From Deltaproteobacteria bacterium (GTDB lineage Bacteria > Desulfobacterota > Syntrophobacteria > Syntrophobacterales > Syntrophobacteraceae), in assembly GCA_021813685.1 (NCBI GenBank), contig JAKAJS010000060.1:1-33796 (forward strand): DNA of 33,796 nt, in the 5' to 3' direction. The translations under genes and the position numbers were made by a program. Shown here piece by piece: positions 225 through 30,434 of the stretch; within the stretch, counting starts at the first letter, position 1, and the number at the start of each line of letters is the position of its first letter. A model generated the notes under the pieces. The model was not told where the DNA came from and made no database searches. It saw only the letters and a program-made list of their open reading frames with translations.

Positions 225-788
225 ATGACAGATATTTTTTCTCCGGCCCAACGGTCCATTGCCATGTCGAAGGTCGGCAGCAGGGACACGAAGCCTGAAT
301 GGATACTGCGTTCAGGCTTGCACAGACTTGGATTCAGGTATAGGCTCGGAAACAGGCATCTTGCGGGAAAACCGGACCTTCTATTTCCCAAATACCGTGC
401 CGTTGTATTTGTGCACGGATGCTACTGGCATCGCCATCCGGGATGCAAAGACGCCACCACTCCCAAGAGCAACACGGATTTCTGGATTCGTAAATTCGCG
501 GAGAACATCGAGCGGGACCGGCGGACAGAGGAAAAACTGGCTGCCGAAGGTTGGCGCGTGATGGTTGTATGGGAGTGTGAGTTGCTCAAGGAAACCCTTC
601 AGGCCGTCAGGCGGGTTTCCAGGTGGCTGACCCAGGAAACCACCGCCGCCCTGGAGTCGTCGGGAGATGAATCCGTGATTGACAGAGCTCAGTTGCTCAC
701 AGTGGCGGAAAGGCGGGTCAGATATCGCATCTGCTCAAATAATAAACCACACACGAATCTGCCAAAGGGCGAGAAAGGCGACGAATAA
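225..788 (+). CDS. vsr: very short patch repair (Vsr) DNA mismatch endonuclease
   Basis: Nicks DNA 5' of the T in T:G mismatches left by deamination of 5-methylcytosine, so that the mutation made likely by the neighbouring methyltransferase is repaired. The 187-residue protein keeps the Vsr core in register with the E. coli enzyme: E25, catalytic D51 (GKPD motif), H64, C66, H69, H71 and C74, then the VVWECEL motif with C118 as a zinc ligand. It has about 40 extra C-terminal residues of low conservation. The ATG at 225 keeps the N-terminal helix of the family; its ribosome site is weak. The stop overlaps the next start by one base (TAATG), so translation is probably coupled to the methyltransferase. 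The family call is very secure. Confidence 0.96.
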   Translation: MTDIFSPAQRSIAMSKVGSRDTKPEWILRSGLHRLGFRYRLGNRHLAGKPDLLFPKYRAVVFVHGCYWHRHPGCKDATTPKSNTDFWIRKFAENIERDRRTEEKLAAEGWRVMVVWECELLKETLQAVRRVSRWLTQETTAALESSGDESVIDRAQLLTVAERRVRYRICSNNKPHTNLPKGEKGDE

Positions 789-1987
789 TGCAAACGAAGG
801 AGCTTGCTGTAGTCGATCTGTTCTCAGGCGCCGGAGGCATGAGCTACGGGTTTCACATGCACCCGGCATTCAGAATCGTGGCCGCAGCAGACGCCGAAAG
901 AGGCAAGCCGAGCACTGGCGCCGGCAAGCTCCAGTGCAACAGGACTTATGCCAAGAATATAGGCATCAATCCCGTCCCACTCGATCTGGCAACGATTGCG
1001 CCAAATCAGCTCCGGTCAGCACTCGCGCTCCCGGATGGGATGCCAATCTCGGTTCTGCTGACCTGCCCGCCGTGCACCGGATTTAGCCGGGCGGTTCCGG
1101 AAAACCACCTTAGAGACGACCACAGAAACAGTCTGGTACGCCGATCGGCAGAATTTGCCGTAGCGTTGTCTGTCGATGTCGTTGTGATGGAAAACGCCCG
1201 GGAGCTTATACGCGGAAACTTCAAGACTCACTACGAGTGGTTCAGGAGACACCTCGAAAGCCACGGATATAACGTATTTGGAAAAACGTACATGCTTTCG
1301 CGGTTCGGTCTGCCGCAGATTCGGGAACGGGCGATCGTAATAGCTGCAAGAAAGCACCTTACCTTGCACACGATGGAAAATCTGTGGGACGGATGGTGCC
1401 TGAAGGACGAAGCCCTCACAGTCAGAAGGGCCTTCAGTACAATCCCGCCGCAAGCCGACGGTCTCACAAATTCTCCCGATTTTTCATCGGAGTCCGTAAG
1501 GCTCAGAATTGCAGCCATTCCGAAAGACGGAGGGTCTTGGATGGACCTCCTGAAACGCCCGGACGCGGAAAGGCTGATGACGAACTCCATGAAGCGAATC
1601 GCTGCGGCCAAAAGGTTCGGATCGTATCCCGACGTGTACGGACGAATGGCTTGGGACAAACCGGCGCAAACCATCAAGCGGGAATGTTCCCATGTTGGAA
1701 ACGGGCGTTACGCCCACCCGGAGCAGGATCGCTTGTGCACCGTCAGAGAGATCGCAACGCTCCAGGGCTTCCCGGACTCCTTCGTCTTTAACGGCGCAGC
1801 CCTCTCCAACATGTATCGTCACATGGGAGACGCCGTGCCTCCGCTCATTTCCTATCAACTGGCTCATCTAGCGCACTGGATATTAACGGGAGAGCAGCCG
1901 AAAATCGAAGAGATCCTCCTTCAGGGCACCCATCTAAACCGTACCGATCTTATCAGAAAAGGTCAGCAGGAGCTTTTTCATGGTTGA
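788..1987 (+). CDS. DNA (cytosine-5-)-methyltransferase of a type II R-M system
   Basis: Transfers a methyl group from S-adenosylmethionine to C5 of cytosine in an unknown recognition sequence. The 399 residues carry the ordered C5-methylase motifs: motif I DLFSGAGG (10-17), motif IV TCPPCTGFS with catalytic C96, motif VI as ENA (135-137; usually ENV), motif VIII QIRER (177-181), and near the C-terminus a motif X-like GDAVPPLISYQLA. The variable target-recognition region lies between VIII and X and does not show me the specificity. It starts on the last base of vsr and overlaps the next gene by 8 bp, so all three genes look like one translationally coupled operon. Confidence 0.95.
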   Translation: MQTKELAVVDLFSGAGGMSYGFHMHPAFRIVAAADAERGKPSTGAGKLQCNRTYAKNIGINPVPLDLATIAPNQLRSALALPDGMPISVLLTCPPCTGFSRAVPENHLRDDHRNSLVRRSAEFAVALSVDVVVMENARELIRGNFKTHYEWFRRHLESHGYNVFGKTYMLSRFGLPQIRERAIVIAARKHLTLHTMENLWDGWCLKDEALTVRRAFSTIPPQADGLTNSPDFSSESVRLRIAAIPKDGGSWMDLLKRPDAERLMTNSMKRIAAAKRFGSYPDVYGRMAWDKPAQTIKRECSHVGNGRYAHPEQDRLCTVREIATLQGFPDSFVFNGAALSNMYRHMGDAVPPLISYQLAHLAHWILTGEQPKIEEILLQGTHLNRTDLIRKGQQELFHG

Positions 1988-2687
1988 TTTCACCATCTCT
2001 GTTACGGAGGCGGAACAAAGACGGCTACGTGAATTTATCAGCGCCCTCCGGACGGAATGCAAAGCTCAGATGCACCCGGAGTCGATGTTCAACACGGAAA
2101 GCTTCGAGAGCGAGTTTCGTTCCAAACTTCTCACTCACCACTGCTTTATGGGCTCTCCGCTTTTCCAGGAAAGCTTCGATTCCGCCTTCATAACCGCATG
2201 CGCGTATGCCGGGCACGAAGTGGAAAAGGCGCCGATTGGGCAACGCTTTTGGGATGTAAAGGTAAATGGGATAAGAATCAGTCTGAAATCGTCCAAGTCC
2301 AAGGGCCTCAGACCGGGGACCCTTCACATCAGCAAACTTACGGAAGCAGCATGGATACAGGATTGTCGCACCGCCGCGAAAAGATGCGAGGAAACCCATC
2401 GGCTCATCCGCGCCTACTGCGCAGAAGTCGACGCAATCATACGACTTCGCTATTTCCAGGTAAACAGTCTCTACGAACTGGTCGAAATCCCGGTTGACCT
2501 CTTCTCCCAAGTTCTCAAGATAGGCATGGCACATTTCGCCTCCGACGGACCTACGATAAACATCCCGATAGGCAAAAAACCATGCGACTTCACCCTGAAG
2601 CTCGACCGATCGGATGCCAAGGTCACCATCGGGAACATCAATAAGGAGCTTTGCACGGTACACGGCACTTGGCAATTACCGGAATGA
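1980..2687 (+). CDS. probable type II restriction endonuclease, unrecognised family
   Basis: The 235-residue product has no family I can name. Position is the main evidence: it overlaps the cytosine methyltransferase by 8 bp and closes a vsr-methylase-X operon, where the cognate restriction enzyme normally sits. In the sequence, WDVKVNG followed by ISLKSSK gives D92 and K103 in a beta-hairpin-like context, with acidic residues upstream (E44, E80). This resembles the PD-(D/E)xK nuclease core with SLK at the lysine strand. The C-terminal half looks mixed alpha/beta and has no membrane segment. It could instead be an accessory protein of the methylase. The nuclease call is an inference of moderate strength. 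Confidence 0.6.
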   Translation: MVDFTISVTEAEQRRLREFISALRTECKAQMHPESMFNTESFESEFRSKLLTHHCFMGSPLFQESFDSAFITACAYAGHEVEKAPIGQRFWDVKVNGIRISLKSSKSKGLRPGTLHISKLTEAAWIQDCRTAAKRCEETHRLIRAYCAEVDAIIRLRYFQVNSLYELVEIPVDLFSQVLKIGMAHFASDGPTINIPIGKKPCDFTLKLDRSDAKVTIGNINKELCTVHGTWQLPE

Positions 2688-11413: not shown

Positions 11414-11515
11414 AATGGACGCTCACCCCCCGAACTCTCGCCCTCACGCCCCCCATTGACCTTATCCCGCCCTCTTCCCGAATACCCGAAGGAACAGGTT
11501 TGGCAACTCCTGCGT

Positions 11516-11529
11516 ATGCACTATTGCAT
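11516..11529. promoter_or_regulatory. third ATGC-N6-GCAT palindrome upstream of the CoA-transferase operon
   Basis: ATGCACTATTGCAT, flanked as TATGCA...TGCATAAT, lies about 120 bp upstream of the predicted sigma-54 start point, a typical distance for an enhancer-like activator site. Its half-sites match the copies at 11379, 11400, 21884 and 23751. Confidence 0.6.
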
Positions 11530-11614
11530 AATCCGGTGCGCCGGACCGTGCTTTGCGCGCCCGGTTAGCGCCGTTTCCGGCGCCGTTTTGCGGCCTCATC
11601 CCCCACGATATCGA

Positions 11615-11649
11615 TGGTGTATATTTTGCAACCCTAAAGCGGGTTGCAA
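11615..11649 (+). promoter_or_regulatory. sigma-54 promoter of the CoA-transferase/aldehyde oxidoreductase operon, with overlapping palindrome
   Basis: TGGTGTATATTTTGCA (11615-11630) has GG and GC separated by ten bases and a perfect TTGCA -12 box; transcription would begin near 11641. The -12 box is also part of a nine-base perfect palindrome, TTGCAACCC (11626-11634) and GGGTTGCAA (11641-11649), spanning roughly -15 to +9. This could be a repressor site blocking the polymerase or an RNA hairpin at the 5' end. Confidence 0.6.
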
Positions 11650-11695
11650 CCTGCGTCACGGAGTCATACAAACCAGCACCTTCAGGAAAATCCCA

Positions 11696-12658
11696 ATGAA
11701 TAAGAACCCCAAATTCATGAGTCTTGCCGAAGCCGTGAAATTGATACAGGACGGCGACCAGATCACTCTTGGCGGATTCACGACAAACCGCAATCCCATG
11801 GCGCTTTGCCGTGAAATCATTCGGCAAAGAAAAAAAGACATTCACCTGGCCGTACACTCGCATGGCCAGGGGATGGAGCTTTTGATCGGTGCGGGGTGTG
11901 TGCGCCGGATCGAACTGGCATACGGAGGCGTAGGGCGTTTTGCCCCGACGGCCATCCGTTTCCGGGAGGCGGTACGCAGGGGGCAGATCCAGTTCGAGGA
12001 CTACTCCAATTTCCACATGCTCCTGCGGTTCATGGCCGGAGCGATGCAGCTTCCCTTCATCGCCACCACTTCGGGTCTTGAGACGGACATAGTCAAGAAG
12101 GCCGGGTTCCCCGAGGAGGTGCGCGGCACCGGGCGGGTACCCGGCAAAAAGCTAAAGGTTGTCAAAAACCCCTGGGACGAAGGAGAGGGAGATGTGGTGC
12201 TGCTTCCGCCCTTAAATCCAGACGTAGCCATCCTTCACGTGCAGTATGCGGGGGAGGACGGAACAGTGCGCATCCAGGGGCTCACCTTTGCGGATCTGGA
12301 AGAGGCGAAGGCGGCAAAGCTCGTGATCGTAACCTGCGAGGAGGTCGTTCCAACGGAATACCTGAGGCGCGACCCGGACCTCAACAGTCTGCCCCACTTT
12401 CTGGTGGACGCTGTGGTCCACGCCCCCTACGGGGCGCACCCCACTGCCTGCCATTATTTCTATGACTACGACCCGGGACACCTGCGGATGTGTGCGGAAA
12501 TGTCCAAAAAAGACGAAGATTTTAAGCGATACCTCGAGGAATGGGTGTATCCTTTCGAGACCCACGAAGAGTATCTGGAAAAGGTGGGAATCCGGGAGAT
12601 TTTAAAGATCAGGGCCAATCCGGCAACCGGTTATGCACCCGGCCTGGACAGACGATAG
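11696..12658 (+). CDS. gctA: CoA-transferase subunit A, glutaconate CoA-transferase type
   Basis: Alpha subunit of a class I CoA-transferase that moves CoA between a donor acyl-CoA and a carboxylic acid. The reading frame is open further upstream, but ATG 11696 behind AGGAAAA is the real start; it gives 320 residues, the length typical of GctA. Landmarks are GDQITLGGFTTNRNPMALCREIIRQ at the N-terminus and the glycine-rich LIGAGCVRRIELAYGGVGRFAP. The beta subunit follows after nine bases. Substrate is inferred: a dicarboxylate such as glutarate or glutaconate fits the family and the neighbouring aminotransferase and aldehyde oxidoreductase, but related enzymes act on other acids. Confidence 0.85.
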   Translation: MNKNPKFMSLAEAVKLIQDGDQITLGGFTTNRNPMALCREIIRQRKKDIHLAVHSHGQGMELLIGAGCVRRIELAYGGVGRFAPTAIRFREAVRRGQIQFEDYSNFHMLLRFMAGAMQLPFIATTSGLETDIVKKAGFPEEVRGTGRVPGKKLKVVKNPWDEGEGDVVLLPPLNPDVAILHVQYAGEDGTVRIQGLTFADLEEAKAAKLVIVTCEEVVPTEYLRRDPDLNSLPHFLVDAVVHAPYGAHPTACHYFYDYDPGHLRMCAEMSKKDEDFKRYLEEWVYPFETHEEYLEKVGIREILKIRANPATGYAPGLDRR

Positions 12659-12667
12659 GAAGCAGCC

Positions 12668-13453
12668 ATGGAAAGCTACACATCTCGAGAAATCATGTCC
12701 ATAATCGCCGGGCGCCTGGTAAATGACGGAGATATCCTGTTCGCGGGAACCGGCGTGTCGCTTCTTGCCGCAAGCGCGGCCAAACGCATCTACGCACCGC
12801 AATCGGTGGTTTTTTTCGAAACGGGGGGCATCGACCCCTCGCTCGACGAGCTTCCCATGGCGGTCGCAGACTCCCGCGTCATGACGGGCAGCTCGATCAA
12901 TGCGGGTCTGGGGGAATCTCTGTCCCTCCTGGCTCATCCGAAACTGCGTACAATCGGTTTCATCGGGGCCGCCCAAATCGACCGGTTCGGCAATGTCAAC
13001 TCGACGTGCCTCGGGGATTATCATAAGCCAAGCGTCCGATTCCCGGGCGCGGGAGGAGCCTGCGACGCGCTCAGCTTTGCCTTTGGGATGATTATTTTCA
13101 TGTCGCATGAAAAGCGCCGGTTTGTCGAAAAACTCGACTACCTGACCAGCCCGGGATGGCTCACCGGAGGGGATTCGCGCCGCAGGGCCGGGTACAAACG
13201 AGGCGGCCCCATGGCAGTCGTCACCAATATGGGCATAATGAAATTTGACGAAGTCACCAGGGAGATGTACCTTGCCGAATATTATCCCGGGGTGACTCCT
13301 GAGACCATTGCCGAAAATACGGGCTTTGCGCTCGATCTCAGCCGCGCTCTCCCCTCGGCGCCGCCCACCGGGGAGGAACTTCGGATACTGCGGGAGGAAA
13401 TCGATCCGCAGCGGCTGATACTGGAAAACTCCTCCAAACAGGCCGATGGCTGA
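12668..13453 (+). CDS. gctB: CoA-transferase subunit B, glutaconate CoA-transferase type
   Basis: Beta subunit, 261 residues, carrying the catalytic glutamate. FFETGGID places E51 where Glu54 of glutaconate CoA-transferase forms the covalent glutamyl-CoA intermediate. This argues for a true transferase rather than an IpdAB-type hydrolase, which lacks this residue. A glycine-rich stretch (SPGWLTGGDSRRRAGYKRGGP) and VVTNMGIMKFD are typical of the C-terminal half. It has an AGGAAGC ribosome site in the nine-base gap after subunit A and overlaps the next gene by eight bases, so the subunits and the cysteine desulfurase are probably made together. Confidence 0.87.
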   Translation: MESYTSREIMSIIAGRLVNDGDILFAGTGVSLLAASAAKRIYAPQSVVFFETGGIDPSLDELPMAVADSRVMTGSSINAGLGESLSLLAHPKLRTIGFIGAAQIDRFGNVNSTCLGDYHKPSVRFPGAGGACDALSFAFGMIIFMSHEKRRFVEKLDYLTSPGWLTGGDSRRRAGYKRGGPMAVVTNMGIMKFDEVTREMYLAEYYPGVTPETIAENTGFALDLSRALPSAPPTGEELRILREEIDPQRLILENSSKQADG

Positions 13454-14615
13454 ATCGATGGAAAGACGGTTCATTTATCTCGATAACGCTGCGACCACGT
13501 TTCCCAAGCCGCCTTCGGTACTGGAGAAAGCGGTTGCTACCTACCTTGCAATGGGGGTGTCGCCGGGGCGCGGCGGCTATGATATGGCGGTGGAAGCCGA
13601 GGAACTGGTCACACAAATCCGCGGCAAGCTGGCCCGTTTCTTTGGCGCTCCCGATCCCGACCGTGTGATATTCGCCGCAAATGCCACAGATGGTCTGAAC
13701 CTTGTGATCCAGGGCTGCGTCAGCCCCGGCGACCACATCGTTTCCACCCGCCTGGAGCACAACTCCGTGCTTCGGCCGCTGCACCATCTAAAGCAACGCG
13801 GCATTATCGACTACGACCTGGTACCCTTCGACGGCCGGGGCTTTGTGCACCCGGTCGCTGTTGCCGAAAAAATTCGCACCAATACCCGGGCGGTTGTGGT
13901 GAGCCATGTGTCCAACGTGCTCGGAACCATTCAGCCGATCGAAGAGATCGGCCGCGTGTGCGGGGAGCGCGGCGTCCCGCTGATCGTCGATGCGGCCCAA
14001 AGCGCCGGGGTGATCCCGGTCAAGATGACTCCCTGGCAGGTCTCGGCGGTCGCCTTCACCGGCCACAAGTCTCTCATGGGGCCATCCGGTATCGGGGGAC
14101 TGGTCTTAAACCGCGACTTCGAGGTGAGAACCACCCGGTATGGCGGAACAGGGATTGACTCGGAAAGTCCGTTTCACACCCAAACCTATCCACACCGATT
14201 GGAGGCGGGCACGCTCAATCTGCTCGGCATTATCGGTTTATCCGAAGGAGTCGATTTTGTCCTCGCCGAGGGGCAGGATGCTATCCGGGCGCGGGAAATC
14301 GAGCTCGTGACACGCCTTCGGGACGGACTCTCCCGGCTGGACGGGGTGAAACTTTACTGCGCCGAGGATCTTACCGGACACGCCGGACTCCTCACGGTGG
14401 TCGTGGAAGGGATGAACTCCCAGGACGTCGGCACAATTCTTGATGCAGATTTCGGAATCGCCGTTCGTGCCGGTTTTCACTGCGCACCGCTGGTCCATGC
14501 CGATTTGGGTTTCGGCAAAGTCGGCGGTGTTCGCTTCAGCCCGGGACCGTTCACGACGCGGGACGATATAGATGCGGCGATCGATGCCATGAGTACGATA
14601 GCCGGTTCGCACTGA
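13446..14615 (+). CDS. class V aminotransferase-fold cysteine desulfurase (SufS/NifS-like)
   Basis: PLP enzyme expected to strip sulfur from cysteine and hold it as a persulfide. In 389 residues: LDNAATTFPKP at the N-terminus, H105 stacking on PLP, D182 in VDAAQS, K208 in TGHKSLMGP as the Schiff-base lysine, and C346 in RAGFHCAPL as the persulfide cysteine. It resembles the desulfurase group (TIGR01977, from memory) often found beside molybdenum hydroxylases. It overlaps gctB by eight bases and precedes the molybdenum aldehyde oxidoreductase. Its likely job is supplying the terminal sulfur of the molybdenum cofactor rather than general Fe-S assembly; no IscU or SufBC is nearby. That role is inferred. 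Confidence 0.85.
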   Translation: MAESMERRFIYLDNAATTFPKPPSVLEKAVATYLAMGVSPGRGGYDMAVEAEELVTQIRGKLARFFGAPDPDRVIFAANATDGLNLVIQGCVSPGDHIVSTRLEHNSVLRPLHHLKQRGIIDYDLVPFDGRGFVHPVAVAEKIRTNTRAVVVSHVSNVLGTIQPIEEIGRVCGERGVPLIVDAAQSAGVIPVKMTPWQVSAVAFTGHKSLMGPSGIGGLVLNRDFEVRTTRYGGTGIDSESPFHTQTYPHRLEAGTLNLLGIIGLSEGVDFVLAEGQDAIRAREIELVTRLRDGLSRLDGVKLYCAEDLTGHAGLLTVVVEGMNSQDVGTILDADFGIAVRAGFHCAPLVHADLGFGKVGGVRFSPGPFTTRDDIDAAIDAMSTIAGSH

Positions 14616-14669
14616 CTCGATGAGGCAAATTCGCCCCGCTCTGCGGAGAAACGGAGGGGGACAGGAGAG

Positions 14670-17345
14670 ATGATGAAGAGTATCAAGTTGCAGGTAAACG
14701 GCGTTCTAAAGCACTTCGTTGTGGACGAAGACCGCGTGCTTCTGGATTTGCTGCGGGAAGATCTGGGGCTTACGGGCGCCAAGCAGTCGTGTGACCGCAA
14801 AGGCCAGTGCGGCGCATGTATGGTGATAGTAAACGGCAAGGCGGTGCTCTCCTGCCTGACCAGGGTCGCCTCCCTGGACGGAGCCCGGGTCATTTCCATC
14901 GAAGGGCTGGGCACGCCCGAAAATCCCCATCTCATTCAGGAAGCCTTCGTATTGGCCGGGGCCGTCCAGTGCGGATTCTGCACCCCCGGCATGATCCTGT
15001 CGGCCAAGGCGCTTCTCGACAAAAACCCTGATCCCGGCGACGAGGAGATAAAACACGCGCTTCGCCGCAACCTGTGCCGGTGCACCGGGTATAAGAAGAT
15101 TATCGAGGCGGTCAGGCTCGCCGGCCGGTTTTTGCGCGGGGAGACCACCCCGGAGGCGGTACGCCGGGATTTGGGCACAAAAATCATAGGGGTTTCCCAC
15201 CCGAGGCCCACAGCCCTTGCCAAGGCATGCGGCGTGGCCCACTTCGGTGCGGATATCAAGATCGAGGGGGCGCTGGAACTGGCCGTGCTGCGCAGCACCC
15301 TGCCCCATGCGCGCATCGACTCCATTGACACAGCGAAAGCCGAGGCGATGCCCGGCGTCGTCGGCGTTCTCAAGGCTTCGGACATTAAAGGCACCAACAC
15401 CCTCAAATACCTCCGGGCCGATCGCCCGGTGCTCTGTGGCGACAAGGTTCGCTGCATAGGAGATCCGATCGTCGCGGTTGCCGCGAAAACCCGCGCGCAG
15501 GCCGAGGCCGCCGTAAAGGAGATACAGGTAACCCTTACTCCCCTGCCGGTTATCGACACCCCCGAGGCGGCACTCGCCGAAGGTGCGGTGAGCATTCACG
15601 ACGAGTTCCCCAACCTGTGCCTGGAACAGCCGCAGATAAAAGGCGATGCGAAGGCCGCCCTTCGTGAATCGGCCGCGGTCATCGAAGCCAGGTTCACGAC
15701 CCAGACCAACCACCAGGCGCCCCTCGAACCCGAAGTAACGGTCGCCTACTGGGAAGAGGGTGAACCGGGCGAAGAGGATGCCAAGCTCGTGATCATCGGC
15801 CGAAGCATTAACATCCACTATCACCTGGGCATGCTTCAGGAGGCTCTGGGCTGGGAGAATATGAGCTACCGGGAGGCATTCTCCGGCGGCCAGTTCGGTA
15901 TAAAACTCGATGTCATGTCAGAAGGCATTGCCGGGGCTGCGGCGATTCATTTCAAGAGCGCGATCCGCTATATCCCGAGTCTTGCCGAAAGCATGGCGAT
16001 GACCTCCAAACGGCACCCCTTCACCATGGACGTAAAACTCGCAGCCGATGCCCGGGGGAAACTCACGGCCTACTGCAATCACTACATAGTGGACAAGGGA
16101 GCGTATTATTCCATAGGTCACGGGGTGATAAACCGCTCGCTCCTCATGCTTTCGGGCTCCTACAATATTCCCAATATCGATGCCATGGCAAGGCTCGCCT
16201 ACACCAATAACCCCTTTGGGAGCGCCGCCCGCGGCGCCGGCCCCCCGCAGGTGAACTTCGCCCTCGAATGCGCCATGGAGATGCTTGCCGATAAACTCGG
16301 GATGGATTCGCTCGAATTCCGGCTGCTCAATTGCCTGCAGCCCGGCGAGTCCAAATCCACCGGCCGCACGGTGACCGAATGGCCTCTGCCGGGGCTTCTC
16401 GAAGCGGTCCGCCCCCATTACAGGCGCGCGCTCGAGGAGGCCAAAAGCTTTCAAACCGGAGAGGTCCGGCGCGGAGTCGGCCTGGCGACGGGCTCCTTTG
16501 GCATCGGCGGCCCCGGTGATGTCGGTGTTGCTTCCGTCGAACTCGATGCAGACGGAGGGGTAACCGTCTATGCCGCAGCCGCAGACCCGGGCGAGGGAAA
16601 CGATTCCATGCTCGCACAGCTCACCGCCGCCTTCATGGGCCTGCCGCTCGATAAGGTGCGCCTCAATACGCGCGATACGGATTTTACGGCGGCGAGCGGT
16701 CCGGCCGCGGGAAGCCGCATCACCTACATGATCGGAGGAGCCCTCCTCGATGCCCTGGGGCAACTCAGGAGCGCCATGGAGGAAACGGGAGCGAAAAACT
16801 CCGAGGACCTTGTCAAAGCCGGCAAGCCAGCACGCTATCTGGGCAGAAAGAAAAACGAAGAGGTAGGCCCCCTCGATCCCAAAACCGGCCAGGGGCCCTC
16901 CTTCGAATCGCAGGTCCATGCCGTACAAATGGTGGAGCTGGAAGTAAACCTCACGAGCGGAGAGGTGAAGGTCTTAAAAGTTACCGCCGCGGTCGATGCC
17001 GGAACGGTCATCAACCCGCAGAACCTTACCGCTCAACTGGAAGGCGGTTTGGACATGGGAGTGGGCTACGCTCTCCGAGAAGAGTACATCGCCGGAAAAA
17101 CCAAAGACTGGGTCACGTTCAAATTCCCCTCGATTCGCCATAGCTTCGATATGGAGATCATCATCCGGGAGACTCCCCGTCCCAAAGGCCCCATGGGTGC
17201 TACCGGAGTCGGGGAAATGTGCCTGGTGCCAACAGCGCCCGCAGTGATAAACGCCATCAAGAATGCCACCGGCTTCTGGGTGTGCGACCTGCCGGCAACA
17301 CCCGATAAGATCAAGGCGCTCGCCTCGACGGCGCAGGGAGTGTAA
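14670..17345 (+). CDS. molybdenum aldehyde oxidoreductase, xanthine oxidase family, two-domain MOP type
   Basis: Oxidises an aldehyde to a carboxylic acid with water as oxygen source, passing electrons through two [2Fe-2S] clusters. Residues 1-150 are the iron-sulfur part: C41, C47, C50, C62 for the plant-type cluster, and C101, C104, C136, C138 (CGFC...CRC) for the second, nearly the spacing of D. gigas MOP. The rest is the molybdopterin domain, with ARGAGPPQ near residue 525 and GVGE giving E849, the catalytic glutamate. There is no FAD domain, so electrons leave to a separate carrier. 891 residues; ATG 14673, one codon in, fits the AGGAG spacing slightly better. A semialdehyde from the nearby aminotransferase is a plausible substrate; the sequence does not prove it. 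Confidence 0.88.
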   Translation: MMKSIKLQVNGVLKHFVVDEDRVLLDLLREDLGLTGAKQSCDRKGQCGACMVIVNGKAVLSCLTRVASLDGARVISIEGLGTPENPHLIQEAFVLAGAVQCGFCTPGMILSAKALLDKNPDPGDEEIKHALRRNLCRCTGYKKIIEAVRLAGRFLRGETTPEAVRRDLGTKIIGVSHPRPTALAKACGVAHFGADIKIEGALELAVLRSTLPHARIDSIDTAKAEAMPGVVGVLKASDIKGTNTLKYLRADRPVLCGDKVRCIGDPIVAVAAKTRAQAEAAVKEIQVTLTPLPVIDTPEAALAEGAVSIHDEFPNLCLEQPQIKGDAKAALRESAAVIEARFTTQTNHQAPLEPEVTVAYWEEGEPGEEDAKLVIIGRSINIHYHLGMLQEALGWENMSYREAFSGGQFGIKLDVMSEGIAGAAAIHFKSAIRYIPSLAESMAMTSKRHPFTMDVKLAADARGKLTAYCNHYIVDKGAYYSIGHGVINRSLLMLSGSYNIPNIDAMARLAYTNNPFGSAARGAGPPQVNFALECAMEMLADKLGMDSLEFRLLNCLQPGESKSTGRTVTEWPLPGLLEAVRPHYRRALEEAKSFQTGEVRRGVGLATGSFGIGGPGDVGVASVELDADGGVTVYAAAADPGEGNDSMLAQLTAAFMGLPLDKVRLNTRDTDFTAASGPAAGSRITYMIGGALLDALGQLRSAMEETGAKNSEDLVKAGKPARYLGRKKNEEVGPLDPKTGQGPSFESQVHAVQMVELEVNLTSGEVKVLKVTAAVDAGTVINPQNLTAQLEGGLDMGVGYALREEYIAGKTKDWVTFKFPSIRHSFDMEIIIRETPRPKGPMGATGVGEMCLVPTAPAVINAIKNATGFWVCDLPATPDKIKALASTAQGV

Positions 17346-17701
17346 TGGCAAACGGTTCCGAATCGGACGAAACTGTCCCCCAACAACAGGTGCGGCTCCT
17401 CGCCGGTCGTGAGATTCTCTTTGATGCAGAAGGCTTCTTGAGCGATTTTAACGACTGGTCCGAGGAGCTCTTCGAGATTCTCGCACAGGAAAGCGGACTT
17501 GCCTGCCTGACAGACAAACACTGGCGGGTGGTCCGTTTCCTGCGCGAGTTTTACGCGCAAAACGGCCGTAGCCCCTTGAACCACCAGTTGAGGAAAGGCA
17601 CCGAGCTAAGCGCTCTCGAACTGCAGCACCTCTTTCCCGAAGGGATAAAGCTCGGGGCCCGCAGACTCGCCGGGCTGCCCAATCCCAAGACCTGCAGTTA
17701 A
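17345..17701 (+). CDS. DsrC/TusE-family sulfur carrier with only the penultimate cysteine
   Basis: Small persulfide carrier, 118 residues, of the DsrC/TusE/DsvC family: the helical core LTDKHWRVVRFLREFYAQNG, then LFPEG and the C-terminal arm AGLPNPKTCS. C117, next to last, is the conserved sulfur-accepting cysteine. The second arm cysteine of true DsrC, eleven residues earlier, is replaced by arginine (R106). This makes it TusE-like and unable to form the DsrC trisulfide with sulfite reductase. It starts on the last base of the aldehyde oxidoreductase stop and ends the operon. It may carry sulfur from the upstream desulfurase to the molybdenum cofactor; that role is inferred. tusBCD genes are absent from the window. 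Confidence 0.85.
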   Translation: MANGSESDETVPQQQVRLLAGREILFDAEGFLSDFNDWSEELFEILAQESGLACLTDKHWRVVRFLREFYAQNGRSPLNHQLRKGTELSALELQHLFPEGIKLGARRLAGLPNPKTCS

Positions 17702-17805: not shown

Positions 17806-17828
17806 ATGGCACATAGGAGGTATTGGAT

Positions 17829-18092
17829 ATGGCTGAAAATTCTGTTGTCCGAGCACGGATTGACAGTGCTGTAAAAATTGAAGCCGAGGCGGTCCTTGCC
17901 TCCATCGGGCTTACTGTCTCAGATGCATTCCGTCTGATGATGATACGGATCGCCAAAGAGAAGAAGTTGCCGTTTGAACCACACGTGCCGAACGAGGAAA
18001 CAATTGAGGCGATGAAGGCCGCTCGACGTGGCGAACTAATTGAGGTCGGATCGATCGACAACCTGTTCGCGGAGCTAAATGAGGACGATTAG
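17829..18092 (+). CDS. relB: RelB/DinJ-family antitoxin
   Basis: DNA-binding antitoxin of 87 residues. The N-terminal ribbon-helix-helix (VVRARIDSAVKIEAEAVLASIGLTVSDAFRLMMIRIA) matches the RelB/DinJ family. The acidic C-terminal tail would wrap the toxin. The start is ATG 17829 behind a consensus AGGAGG (17815-17820), not the upstream TTG. It overlaps the toxin gene by 14 bases, so the two are co-expressed and the complex probably represses the promoter just upstream. Confidence 0.9.
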   Translation: MAENSVVRARIDSAVKIEAEAVLASIGLTVSDAFRLMMIRIAKEKKLPFEPHVPNEETIEAMKAARRGELIEVGSIDNLFAELNEDD

Positions 18093-18360
18093 TCGAACTA
18101 AGCGATTCAAACGCGACTACAAGCGGGAAAAATCAGGGCGACACAGCAAGACACTCGACACGGACCTGAGGAAGGTTCTTGAATTGCTTGTGGCCGATGA
18201 GCCGTTGCCATATCACAATTTTGATCATCCTCTTGTCGGTGAATGGTCCGATCATCGAGATTGTCACATCAAACCCGACCTGGTTCTTATCTACCGGAAA
18301 TCTGACGACGATCAGCTTGAACTTGTACGCCTGGGGTCACATAACGAACTCGATCTCTAG
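18079..18360 (+). CDS. yafQ: YafQ-family mRNA interferase toxin
   Basis: Ribosome-dependent endoribonuclease of the RelE/YafQ superfamily, 93 residues. The active-site pattern of E. coli YafQ is kept almost in register: H50 (FDHPL), H63 and D67 (RDCHIKPDLVLIY) and H88 (LGSHNEL). The terminal aromatic residue of YafQ is leucine here. All catalytic residues are present, so the toxin should be active and held in check by the overlapping antitoxin. A repeat-rich stretch follows, and the next gene is convergent. Confidence 0.92.
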   Translation: MRTISRTKRFKRDYKREKSGRHSKTLDTDLRKVLELLVADEPLPYHNFDHPLVGEWSDHRDCHIKPDLVLIYRKSDDDQLELVRLGSHNELDL

Positions 18361-29291: not shown

Positions 29292-30434
29292 GTGAAAGGC
29301 GTAGAGGTATTGGTTTTGCCCAAGGAAAGAATCGTTGCCGCCATGAGCGGCGGAGTGGACTCGACGGTAGCCGCAGCCCTGCTCCTGGAGCAGGGCTTTG
29401 AAGTCATGGGGGTGACCCTGCAGTTGCAGAGTTGCGGCGAAACACCGCTTGAGAGTTCCTGCTGCGGCGATGACGCGATCACACAGGCAAAGGCCGCAGC
29501 AGCCCACCTCGGCATCCCCCACTACGTGCTGAACTGCCGGGAGAGCTTCGAGAGCAAAGTCCTGCTGCCCAGTTGGCACGAGTACCGGCAGGGGCGAACC
29601 CCCAACCCCTGCGTCATGTGCAACGAGCAGATCAAGTTCGGCGCGCTTTTCGAGTACGCGAAAACCCTCGGCGCAGAAAGAATTGCCACCGGCCATTATG
29701 TGCGCACCGGCCTGCGAAAAGACGGCCGGGTCTTCCTCCTGCGCGGCGAAGACCCACGCAAGGACCAATCCTATTTTCTTTTCGCCCTGTCCCCCGAAAG
29801 ACTTTCCAAGGCGATGTTTCCGCTGGGCGCCTTCTCCAAGCCAACGGTTCGAGACATGGCACGCCGAATGGGGCTAAAGAATGCCGACCGGACCGAAAGC
29901 CAGGATGCCTGCTTTTCCTCCAAGGAGACCACCTATGCGGAAGCTCTGCGGCAGCGGTTTAAGGAACCTGCGACGCCCGGCCCCATTTTAGACGAAACAG
30001 GCCGCCTGCTGGGCAGACACGACGGAATTCACCGCTTTACCATCGGCCAGAGGCGCGGGATCGGAGTGGCCCTGGGGGCCGCTGCCTGGGTCAAATCGAT
30101 CGATCCCGAACGATCGGCCGTTATCCTTACCGGCAGCAAAGAAAGCCTGGCTGTGCGCGGTTTGATTGCAACGGCAGTCCGCTGGCACGCTCTCACCCCG
30201 AAGTTCCGCCGGCTTCGCTGCTCGGTGCAGGTGCGCTACAACCAGGCCCCGGTTCCTGCGATCGTCGAACCCGAAAGCGCGCACGCCGTGCGTGTTCGCT
30301 TCGAGCGCCCCGTCACCGCCGTCTGCCCGGGGCAGGCTGCCGTTTTTTACGCCGGCAACCGTTTACTCGGAGGGGGATGGATCGACCGTCCGCTCGGAGA
30401 GCCCCTCACTGTTACCGAGGAAAACGATGCGTAA
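29292..30434 (+). CDS. mnmA: tRNA-specific 2-thiouridylase MnmA
   Basis: Adds the 2-thio group to the wobble uridine of Glu, Gln and Lys tRNAs, using ATP to adenylate the base and a persulfide relay for sulfur. 380 residues: the PP-loop SGGVDST (19-25) for ATP, the first conserved cysteine region TPNPCVMCNEQIKFG, GHYVR, DQSYFLFAL, and the second active cysteine in ESQDACF, followed by the C-terminal beta domain with GIHRFTIGQRRGIGV. The GTG at 29292 has a poor ribosome site; TTG at 29316, after GAGG, is an alternative that would trim eight residues. MnmA normally receives sulfur from a TusE-type carrier in E. coli; the TusE-like gene at 17345 could serve here too, though it is 12 kb away. Confidence 0.95.
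   Translation: MKGVEVLVLPKERIVAAMSGGVDSTVAAALLLEQGFEVMGVTLQLQSCGETPLESSCCGDDAITQAKAAAAHLGIPHYVLNCRESFESKVLLPSWHEYRQGRTPNPCVMCNEQIKFGALFEYAKTLGAERIATGHYVRTGLRKDGRVFLLRGEDPRKDQSYFLFALSPERLSKAMFPLGAFSKPTVRDMARRMGLKNADRTESQDACFSSKETTYAEALRQRFKEPATPGPILDETGRLLGRHDGIHRFTIGQRRGIGVALGAAAWVKSIDPERSAVILTGSKESLAVRGLIATAVRWHALTPKFRRLRCSVQVRYNQAPVPAIVEPESAHAVRVRFERPVTAVCPGQAAVFYAGNRLLGGGWIDRPLGEPLTVTEENDA

Follow-up and report, generated by a model that had tools for sequence, protein, structure and literature searches.

The stretch of DNA analysed here, positions 1 to 33,796 of contig JAKAJS010000060.1 (assembly GCA_021813685.1, Deltaproteobacteria bacterium; hereafter the window), contains five genes arranged head to tail on the plus strand, among which a cysteine desulfurase, a molybdenum hydroxylase of the MOP type and a small protein of the DsrC family (hereafter the trio) lie side by side. 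Specifically, the presumed operon opens with CoA-transferase subunit A (11696-12658; PF01144, 107.5 bits; start codon picked by eye within the longer open reading frame (ORF) 11456-12658) and subunit B (12668-13453; PF01144, 100.7 bits), followed by a type II-like (SufS/CsdA-like) desulfurase of the TIGR01977/EF2568 subfamily (13446-14615), the MOP (14670-17345; Fer2, Fer2_2, Ald_Xan_dh_C and MoCoBD_1/2 domains) and a DsrC-fold single-cysteine protein of 118 residues (17345-17701; PF04358 and TIGR03342 above cut-off). The desulfurase ORF overlaps that of subunit B by 8 bases, and the DsrC-like ORF overlaps the MOP stop codon by one. A preliminary description of this DNA had drawn the operon as the three genes from 13446 to 17701; their positions are right, but the operon starts earlier, with the two CoA-transferase genes that precede the desulfurase. 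A homologous CoA-transferase pair also occurs at one other trio locus (G003:C279, 47% identity).

At 413.6 bits (cut-off 377), the desulfurase is a member of TIGR01977; it scores 253 bits with the sufS model against 130 with IscS, and its alignment with the solved desulfurase 5b7s shows no long insertion at the active cysteine. With the model of the selenocysteine lyase SclA (NF040779) it reaches 302 bits, under the cut-off of 525. Its persulfide cysteine, Cys346, sits in the motif RAGFHCA; Cys346 and Lys208, which we take from the family to be the pyridoxal phosphate lysine, are present in all 53 aligned rows (near-copies included).

The MOP carries two [2Fe-2S] domains and both molybdenum-cofactor domains on one polypeptide (Pfam scan), and the domain scan found no flavin adenine dinucleotide domain in it; with its [2Fe-2S] and cofactor domains and its catalytic glutamate it falls within the xanthine oxidase family. 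Against NF045668, the equivalog model of the MOP aldehyde oxidoreductase (AOR), it scores 759 bits, under the cut-off of 1100, and is therefore a relative of that enzyme rather than the equivalog itself. The best solved homologue is the AOR of Desulfovibrio gigas (1sij, E 1e-174), with Glu849 aligned to its Glu869 and Arg521 to its Arg533 (D. gigas residue numbers counted from the alignment of 1sij with the window MOP). Glu849 is found in 58/58 rows of the MOP clade described below, as is Ala520, and Ala523 in 57/58, with Pro in the remaining row. These two alanines stand where D. gigas AOR has Phe532 and Tyr535, and the substrate pocket of the clade therefore probably differs from that of D. 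gigas AOR; for Glu869, Arg533, Phe532 and Tyr535 we presume the functional roles assigned to them in that enzyme.

A distinct subfamily of DsrC-like proteins

The small protein is a member of the DsrC/TusE/DsvC family (PF04358, 94.6 bits, cut-off 24.9; TIGR03342, 80.3 bits, cut-off 53.5) and remains below the cut-off of the TusE equivalog NF008562 (59.9 bits against 191). An AlphaFold2 model based on a seven-sequence alignment has a mean pLDDT of 84, with a less certain tail, and its best Foldseek matches are DsrC chains (template-modelling score of 0.80 on the query for the top one). The tail reads GARRLAGLPNPKTC, with Cys117 as the penultimate residue and Arg106, 11 residues before it, in place of the second cysteine of canonical DsrC. 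All three residues named in the preliminary description, namely Cys346 of the desulfurase, Cys117 and the arginine at the second position, thus proved correct. Cys117 is retained in 62/62 aligned rows (near-copies included), a few of which have more than one residue after it; by contrast, Cys54 of the window protein is a cysteine in only two of the 62, the window being one of them.

Relatives were collected in one scan of a genome collection with an alignment of the seven copies from the window's genus, and the best 80 of 290 confirmed relatives were kept, comprising 46 clade loci and 34 comparison DsrC loci; with the window, the clade set numbers 47. These 46 relatives and the window occupy one side of a branch with an SH-aLRT support of 100, so that the DsrC-like proteins of the trio are a distinct monophyletic DsrC subfamily. 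Forks within the clade are weakly resolved because the tree was built by a quick method from 120 columns, and two clade rows sit on long terminal branches. The position of the second cysteine is Arg in 46/47 clade members and Trp in the other, compared with Ala in 31, Cys in two and Ser in one of the 34 comparison loci. A tight tail pattern matches 40 of the 47 clade rows, the seven misses retaining the cysteine, and none of the 34 comparison rows. One candidate clade member without a MOP, L098 from Pelotomaculum (44% identical), was moved to the comparison set, its tail GACKLAGLPKPAGC and its place in the tree being those of a canonical DsrC.

According to the literature, sulfur is bound only by the penultimate cysteine of DsrC, and the second position is nearly always Ala, Ser or Thr in members from organisms without DsrAB (PMC3397948). 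The single penultimate cysteine noted in the preliminary description is thus the usual state of TusE, whereas arginine in place of Ala, Ser or Thr is indeed unusual.

Judged by record titles, most hosts of the 46 loci are deltaproteobacteria; nine loci come from Bacillota, seven from Chloroflexota, and one each from an actinomycete bin and a 'Proteobacteria' bin. Most hosts are metagenome bins, and lone odd placements may therefore be binning errors. By record name, the 46 loci fall in 42 assemblies, four of which have two.

Other unusual DsrC-like genes were seen in the same survey. A 314-residue ORF with two tandem DsrC domains lies at 9742-10428 of L041 (G000:C251:24241-24927, where G000 is the window's genome); its matches end near query residue 112, and the usual penultimate cysteine may be absent. 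Such double-DsrC ORFs (about 220-370 residues) recur across the genus, in the family and once further out (G063). At 8890-9183 of L042 (G000:C253), a DsrC-like protein has the upstream cysteine (ACKIAGIPKLNT) while the penultimate one is apparently gone, the reverse of the window protein.

Linkage of the three genes across phyla

Locus counts rest on tblastn, because ORF calling in GC-rich loci lost genes to shadow ORFs, and a MOP was counted when at least 50% identical, on the same strand and close by. A MOP adjoins the DsrC-like gene at 46 of the 47 clade loci (the one at L083 being a 71-residue C-terminal piece, and several others being cut by contig starts), a desulfurase at 43 and both at 42. 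Among the five incomplete loci, L084 is without a clade MOP, L063 and L083 are without a desulfurase, and at L069 and L089 the contig ends behind the DsrC-like gene. Beside the comparison DsrC genes, no MOP was found at any of the 34 loci (some contigs are short), and a desulfurase match occurs at two of them (L110, at 32% identity; L121, at 49% and on the opposite strand). Of the 42 complete loci, 40 have the gene order MOP, DsrC-like, desulfurase, and two, the window and L053, have the desulfurase first; the DsrC match begins 3-130 bases after the MOP match in 42/46 loci. Within the window's genus, clade genes are present in 6/11 genomes (window included), each with a MOP; they amount to seven gene copies, at one of which the contig ends before the desulfurase.

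The preliminary description had treated a trio confined to one genome as fatal to its proposal. The survey instead found it in several phyla, with the order changed in two loci, and the 42 complete loci among 47 rule out a peculiarity of the window's genome. The desulfurase, DsrC-like and molybdenum-enzyme genes are apparently a mobile unit. Mirror-tree correlations between the proteins range from r 0.66 to 0.71, with none of 2000 permutations as high (45 loci); they show co-inheritance only and are no evidence of interaction.

The trio is split in the delta proteobacterium NaphS2, where L063 holds a MOP and a DsrC-like gene, with Trp at the position of Arg106, and L084 a DsrC-like gene and a desulfurase. 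The assembly of L083 also carries L091, which has all three genes (its MOP cut by the contig start).

The linkage was also counted from the enzyme. The window MOP was searched in 395 genomes of its own phylum and 301 of Chloroflexota (the phylum of genome G114), with no more than the two or three top-ranking candidates of each genome scored, so that further copies may be missed. The matches separate by an identity gap into clade MOPs (at least 57%; 22 genes, 19 genomes) and other MOPs (at most 44%). Both DsrC and desulfurase are adjacent to 18 of the 22 clade genes, and to 15 of 17 genes (16 genomes) once the genomes already known for the trio (G000, G114 and G121) are set aside. For the other MOPs, 40 matches gave 13 with a locus, to which two from another search were added; neither a DsrC nor a desulfurase lies within 1.5 kb of the MOP in any of these 15 loci, one of which, L183, has its downstream side off the contig (0/14 assessable). 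Four clade MOPs are without partners: two extra copies in G114, one in G414 and the single scored copy in G087. In the MOP tree (FastTree) the clade has a support of 100, and its DsrC-less members fall within it; tree labels denote loci, and L072 is represented there by its DsrC-less copy, which is identical to L193. Both G114 and G414 also carry a complete trio, and these partnerless copies, together with the swap in G087 described next, make the exceptions compatible with maturation acting in trans.

Genome G114 (L072/L197) has three scored clade MOP copies, one of them with DsrC and desulfurase; behind the desulfurase of this trio lies a gene for a 105-residue protein without a Pfam match, which has a homologue in L080.

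In G087, a SufS-family desulfurase (TIGR01979, 305 bits, under the cut-off of 475) starts about 115 bases behind the clade MOP, which has no DsrC partner, and a NifU_N/SufU-like protein comes next (L195, 13417-15177; G087:C172). The second protein has a NifU_N domain (PF01592, 27.5 bits, cut-off 22), and the NifU, SufU and IscU models match it weakly, all under cut-off; the sole DsrC-family match in this genome, found with the window protein, is 36% identical. SufU is described as the transpersulfurase for SufS (PMC11408855). Judging from these sequences, the DsrC/desulfurase pair has apparently been replaced in G087 by another pair of desulfurase and acceptor, which is what a need for both would predict.

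Maturation genes and other neighbours

The preliminary description had suggested checking whether xdhC is absent from such loci. XdhC (PF13478) is above cut-off in 37 of the 41 trio genomes searched (L054 was left out of the 42), is present in 6/6 trio genomes of the window's genus, and lies beside the trio at some loci, which rules out a relay that replaces a missing XdhC; the relay would therefore add to XdhC. XdhC and/or a MobA-like (DVU_1551-type) nucleoside triphosphate transferase are encoded near the trio at 8/46 loci (L053, L059, L060, L061, L072, L076, L085 and L088). Neighbour representatives that were scanned match NF045664 (XdhC family aldehyde oxidoreductase maturation factor), NF045665-NF045667 and NF045669; the DVU_1551-1556 accessory set takes its name from the genes around the D. 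vulgaris MOP. Other neighbours are variable and include branched-chain-type ABC transporters, sigma-54 activators, aldehyde dehydrogenase, electron transfer flavoprotein and CoA transferase. With flanking genes that vary in this way, the trio tracks the enzyme and not one pathway.

Elsewhere in the window, a RelB/DinJ-type antitoxin and RelE/YafQ-type toxin pair directly follows the operon (17823-18360, plus strand), and a type II restriction-modification cluster of a Vsr endonuclease, a C5-cytosine DNA methylase and a SmaI-like restriction endonuclease occupies 225-2687 (plus strand).

A proposed sulfur-delivery pair for molybdenum enzyme maturation

The identity of the genes, their conserved residues, the monophyly of the DsrC-like proteins and a linkage that crosses phyla lead us to favour, by a little, the view that this MOP clade is matured with sulfur delivered by a dedicated pair, the desulfurase and the DsrC-like protein. 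In type II desulfurases a short, buried loop holds the persulfide, and the enzymes depend on a dedicated transpersulfurase (PMC11408855). In the route that we infer, with sulfur as the element transferred, the desulfurase would move sulfur from cysteine onto its Cys346; the DsrC-like protein would then dock on it and take the persulfide on Cys117, acting as a transpersulfurase as SufE or SufU does for SufS. From Cys117 the sulfur would be passed on to a final acceptor that is most likely the molybdenum cofactor, where it would become an equatorial ligand, the handover occurring either to the cofactor held by XdhC or to the apo-enzyme. The molybdenum centre is a plausible sulfur target. By analogy, Arg106 or Arg107 might play the part of the essential arginine of SufE-type partners, although this is a guess. 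The DsrC-like protein, whose C-terminal arm ends in cysteine, would be a fourth kind of transpersulfurase. A testable reading follows the same lines: MOPs without the pair would be oxo enzymes and clade MOPs sulfido (or selenido) enzymes.

Several observations weigh against a dedicated sulfur-delivery pair. The two NaphS2 loci have no adjacent desulfurase in one case (L063) and no clade MOP in the other (L084), and L083 combines the lack of an adjacent desulfurase with a MOP that is only a piece. The swap was seen in G087 alone, where the NifU_N match is weak and the SufS/SufU-like pair could serve Fe-S assembly. XdhC in most trio genomes leaves the need for a carrier unexplained, and in Rhodobacter capsulatus NifS4 sulfurates the XdhC-bound cofactor directly (PMC2997495). 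The premise that enzymes of the xanthine oxidase family need a sulfido ligand, on which the preliminary description had built, does not hold for the nearest solved homologue found, D. gigas AOR, which is active without one (PMC3877041).

We rank sulfur first, and selenium is the main rival, if an unlikely one: the TIGR01977 enzyme would be a selenocysteine lyase and the DsrC-like protein would replace the SirA-like protein of Enterococcus faecalis, the pair delivering selenium to a selenium-dependent molybdenum hydroxylase (SDMH). Published work describes TIGR01977/EF2568 as a probable selenocysteine lyase whose gene lies in clusters that also contain selD, a SirA-like gene, MobA, XdhC and an aldehyde-oxidoreductase-like gene (PMC2276186, PMC2432076), but the window desulfurase lies under the SclA cut-off and no selD was found within trio loci with one SelD query. 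SelD is above cut-off in 40/41 trio genomes, a link that we dropped because the background is high as well (344/395 genomes of the phylum and 240/301 of Chloroflexota), and a search at 1e-60 found no SelD in the window's assembly (97% complete, 6% contaminated). The SDMH marker YqeB follows the trio within the genus (5/6 trio genomes against 0/5 others), yet across the survey YqeB (TIGR03309) is above cut-off in only 14/42 trio genomes, the window's among them, and the one G000 copy whose surroundings were inspected adjoins a different MOP. As a separate observation, G000 has three YqeB copies above cut-off and yet no SelD at E 1e-60, so that either the assembly has a gap or YqeB occurs here in the absence of SelD.

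The remaining explanations retain sulfur transfer with another target or dispense with it. Constant adjacency, with the DsrC gene 3-130 bases after the MOP in 42/46 loci, would suit a structural or redox partner that, for example, takes electrons or holds substrate instead of donating sulfur during maturation; we regard this as quite unlikely, given three MOP paralogues in G114 and G414 without their own DsrC nearby, the apparent replacement by another sulfur-donor pair in G087, the loss of the second DsrC cysteine and a desulfurase that would be left without a role. No greater probability attaches to a pair that sulfurates something else and is tied to the enzyme by pathway only, be it a pathway substrate or product, to which the CoA transferase in the operon might point, or tRNA. 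MnmA is the acceptor of E. coli TusE, and an MnmA-like gene for tRNA 2-thiouridylase (29292-30434, plus strand) lies about 12 kb from the DsrC-like gene in the window, but it has no homologue at any other locus searched, for which reason we rejected a TusE-to-MnmA role; moreover, flanking pathway genes change between loci while the trio stays, and the maturation genes beside some loci are molybdenum-cofactor genes. Least probable by some way is a pair that builds or repairs the two [2Fe-2S] clusters of the enzyme. Fe-S assembly is the setting in which type II desulfurases are most familiar (PMC11408855), and the replacement pair of G087 is SufS/SufU-like, but no Fe-S scaffold appeared among the ten neighbour representatives scanned with Pfam, and MOPs without the pair are homologous across the Fe-S domains too (most matches start from about residue 2).

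Comparison with known systems

It is, in our judgement, evenly poised whether a DsrC-fold subfamily was recruited in Desulfobacterota, Bacillota and Chloroflexota to serve molybdenum-cofactor maturation as a dedicated transpersulfurase and as the carrier of sulfur (or selenium), working with XdhC or directly on the apo-enzyme. Together with its type II desulfurase it would then make up a desulfurase/transpersulfurase pair of a fourth kind. To our knowledge, no DsrC/TusE-type protein has previously been found to serve a molybdenum enzyme, and the open-licence literature matches listed, judged by titles and the starts of abstracts, include no account of the trio or of DsrC/TusE linked to a molybdenum enzyme or XdhC. 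Every part comes from a known family; the carrier appears new for the job. If the proposal is true, it would extend the transpersulfurases by a new fold, take the DsrC/TusE family beyond dissimilatory sulfur metabolism and tRNA thiolation, and establish a carrier-mediated sulfur route as opposed to the desulfurase acting directly on XdhC in R. capsulatus (PMC2997495). Cultured hosts of the trio make the proposal testable: Desulfotruncus arcticus DSM 17038, Desulforhopalus vacuolatus DSM 9700 and Desulfogranum japonicum DSM 18378.

Among the closest parallels to the proposed pair is SufS with SufE or SufU, in which a type II-like desulfurase is likewise accompanied by a small adjacent partner with one conserved cysteine. 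SufE-like partners keep one strictly conserved arginine besides this cysteine (PMC11408855), and the DsrC-like protein has Arg106 too; unlike these partners, it has the DsrC fold and is tied to a molybdenum hydroxylase. E. coli TusE shares the family, the penultimate cysteine as the only one of the two, and a place in a relay downstream of a desulfurase (PMC3397948). It differs in having Ala, Ser or Thr where the trio proteins have arginine, in that their desulfurase is directly adjacent, and in its equivalog model, NF008562, which the window protein fails to reach; within the family at large, the trio tail NPKxC contrasts with KPxGC in the comparison DsrC set.

The E. faecalis SDMH cluster (EF2563-EF2571) resembles the trio loci in its TIGR01977 desulfurase, one-chain Fe-S/molybdenum enzyme, small sulfurtransferase-like (SirA-like) protein, XdhC and MobA (PMC2276186, PMC2432076), whereas the carrier of the trio is DsrC-like, YqeB is restricted to 14/42 genomes and selD was not found at the loci with one query. 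In the NifS4-XdhC system of R. capsulatus, too, a cysteine desulfurase provides the terminal sulfur of a xanthine-oxidase-family enzyme, although by direct action on the XdhC-bound cofactor, with no carrier described in the portion of the paper cited (PMC2997495). Desulfovibrio MOP AOR has the same overall architecture (1sij), and members of its accessory set (NF045664-NF045667 and NF045669) lie beside some trio loci. By contrast, the non-clade MOPs of the phylum are 37-44% identical, neither a DsrC nor a desulfurase lies within 1.5 kb of them at the 15 loci examined, and D. gigas AOR, which works without a sulfido ligand (PMC3877041), has Phe532 and Tyr535 where the trio clade has alanine. 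The trio could also serve to distinguish MOPs with a chalcogen ligand from those that, like D. gigas AOR, have none.

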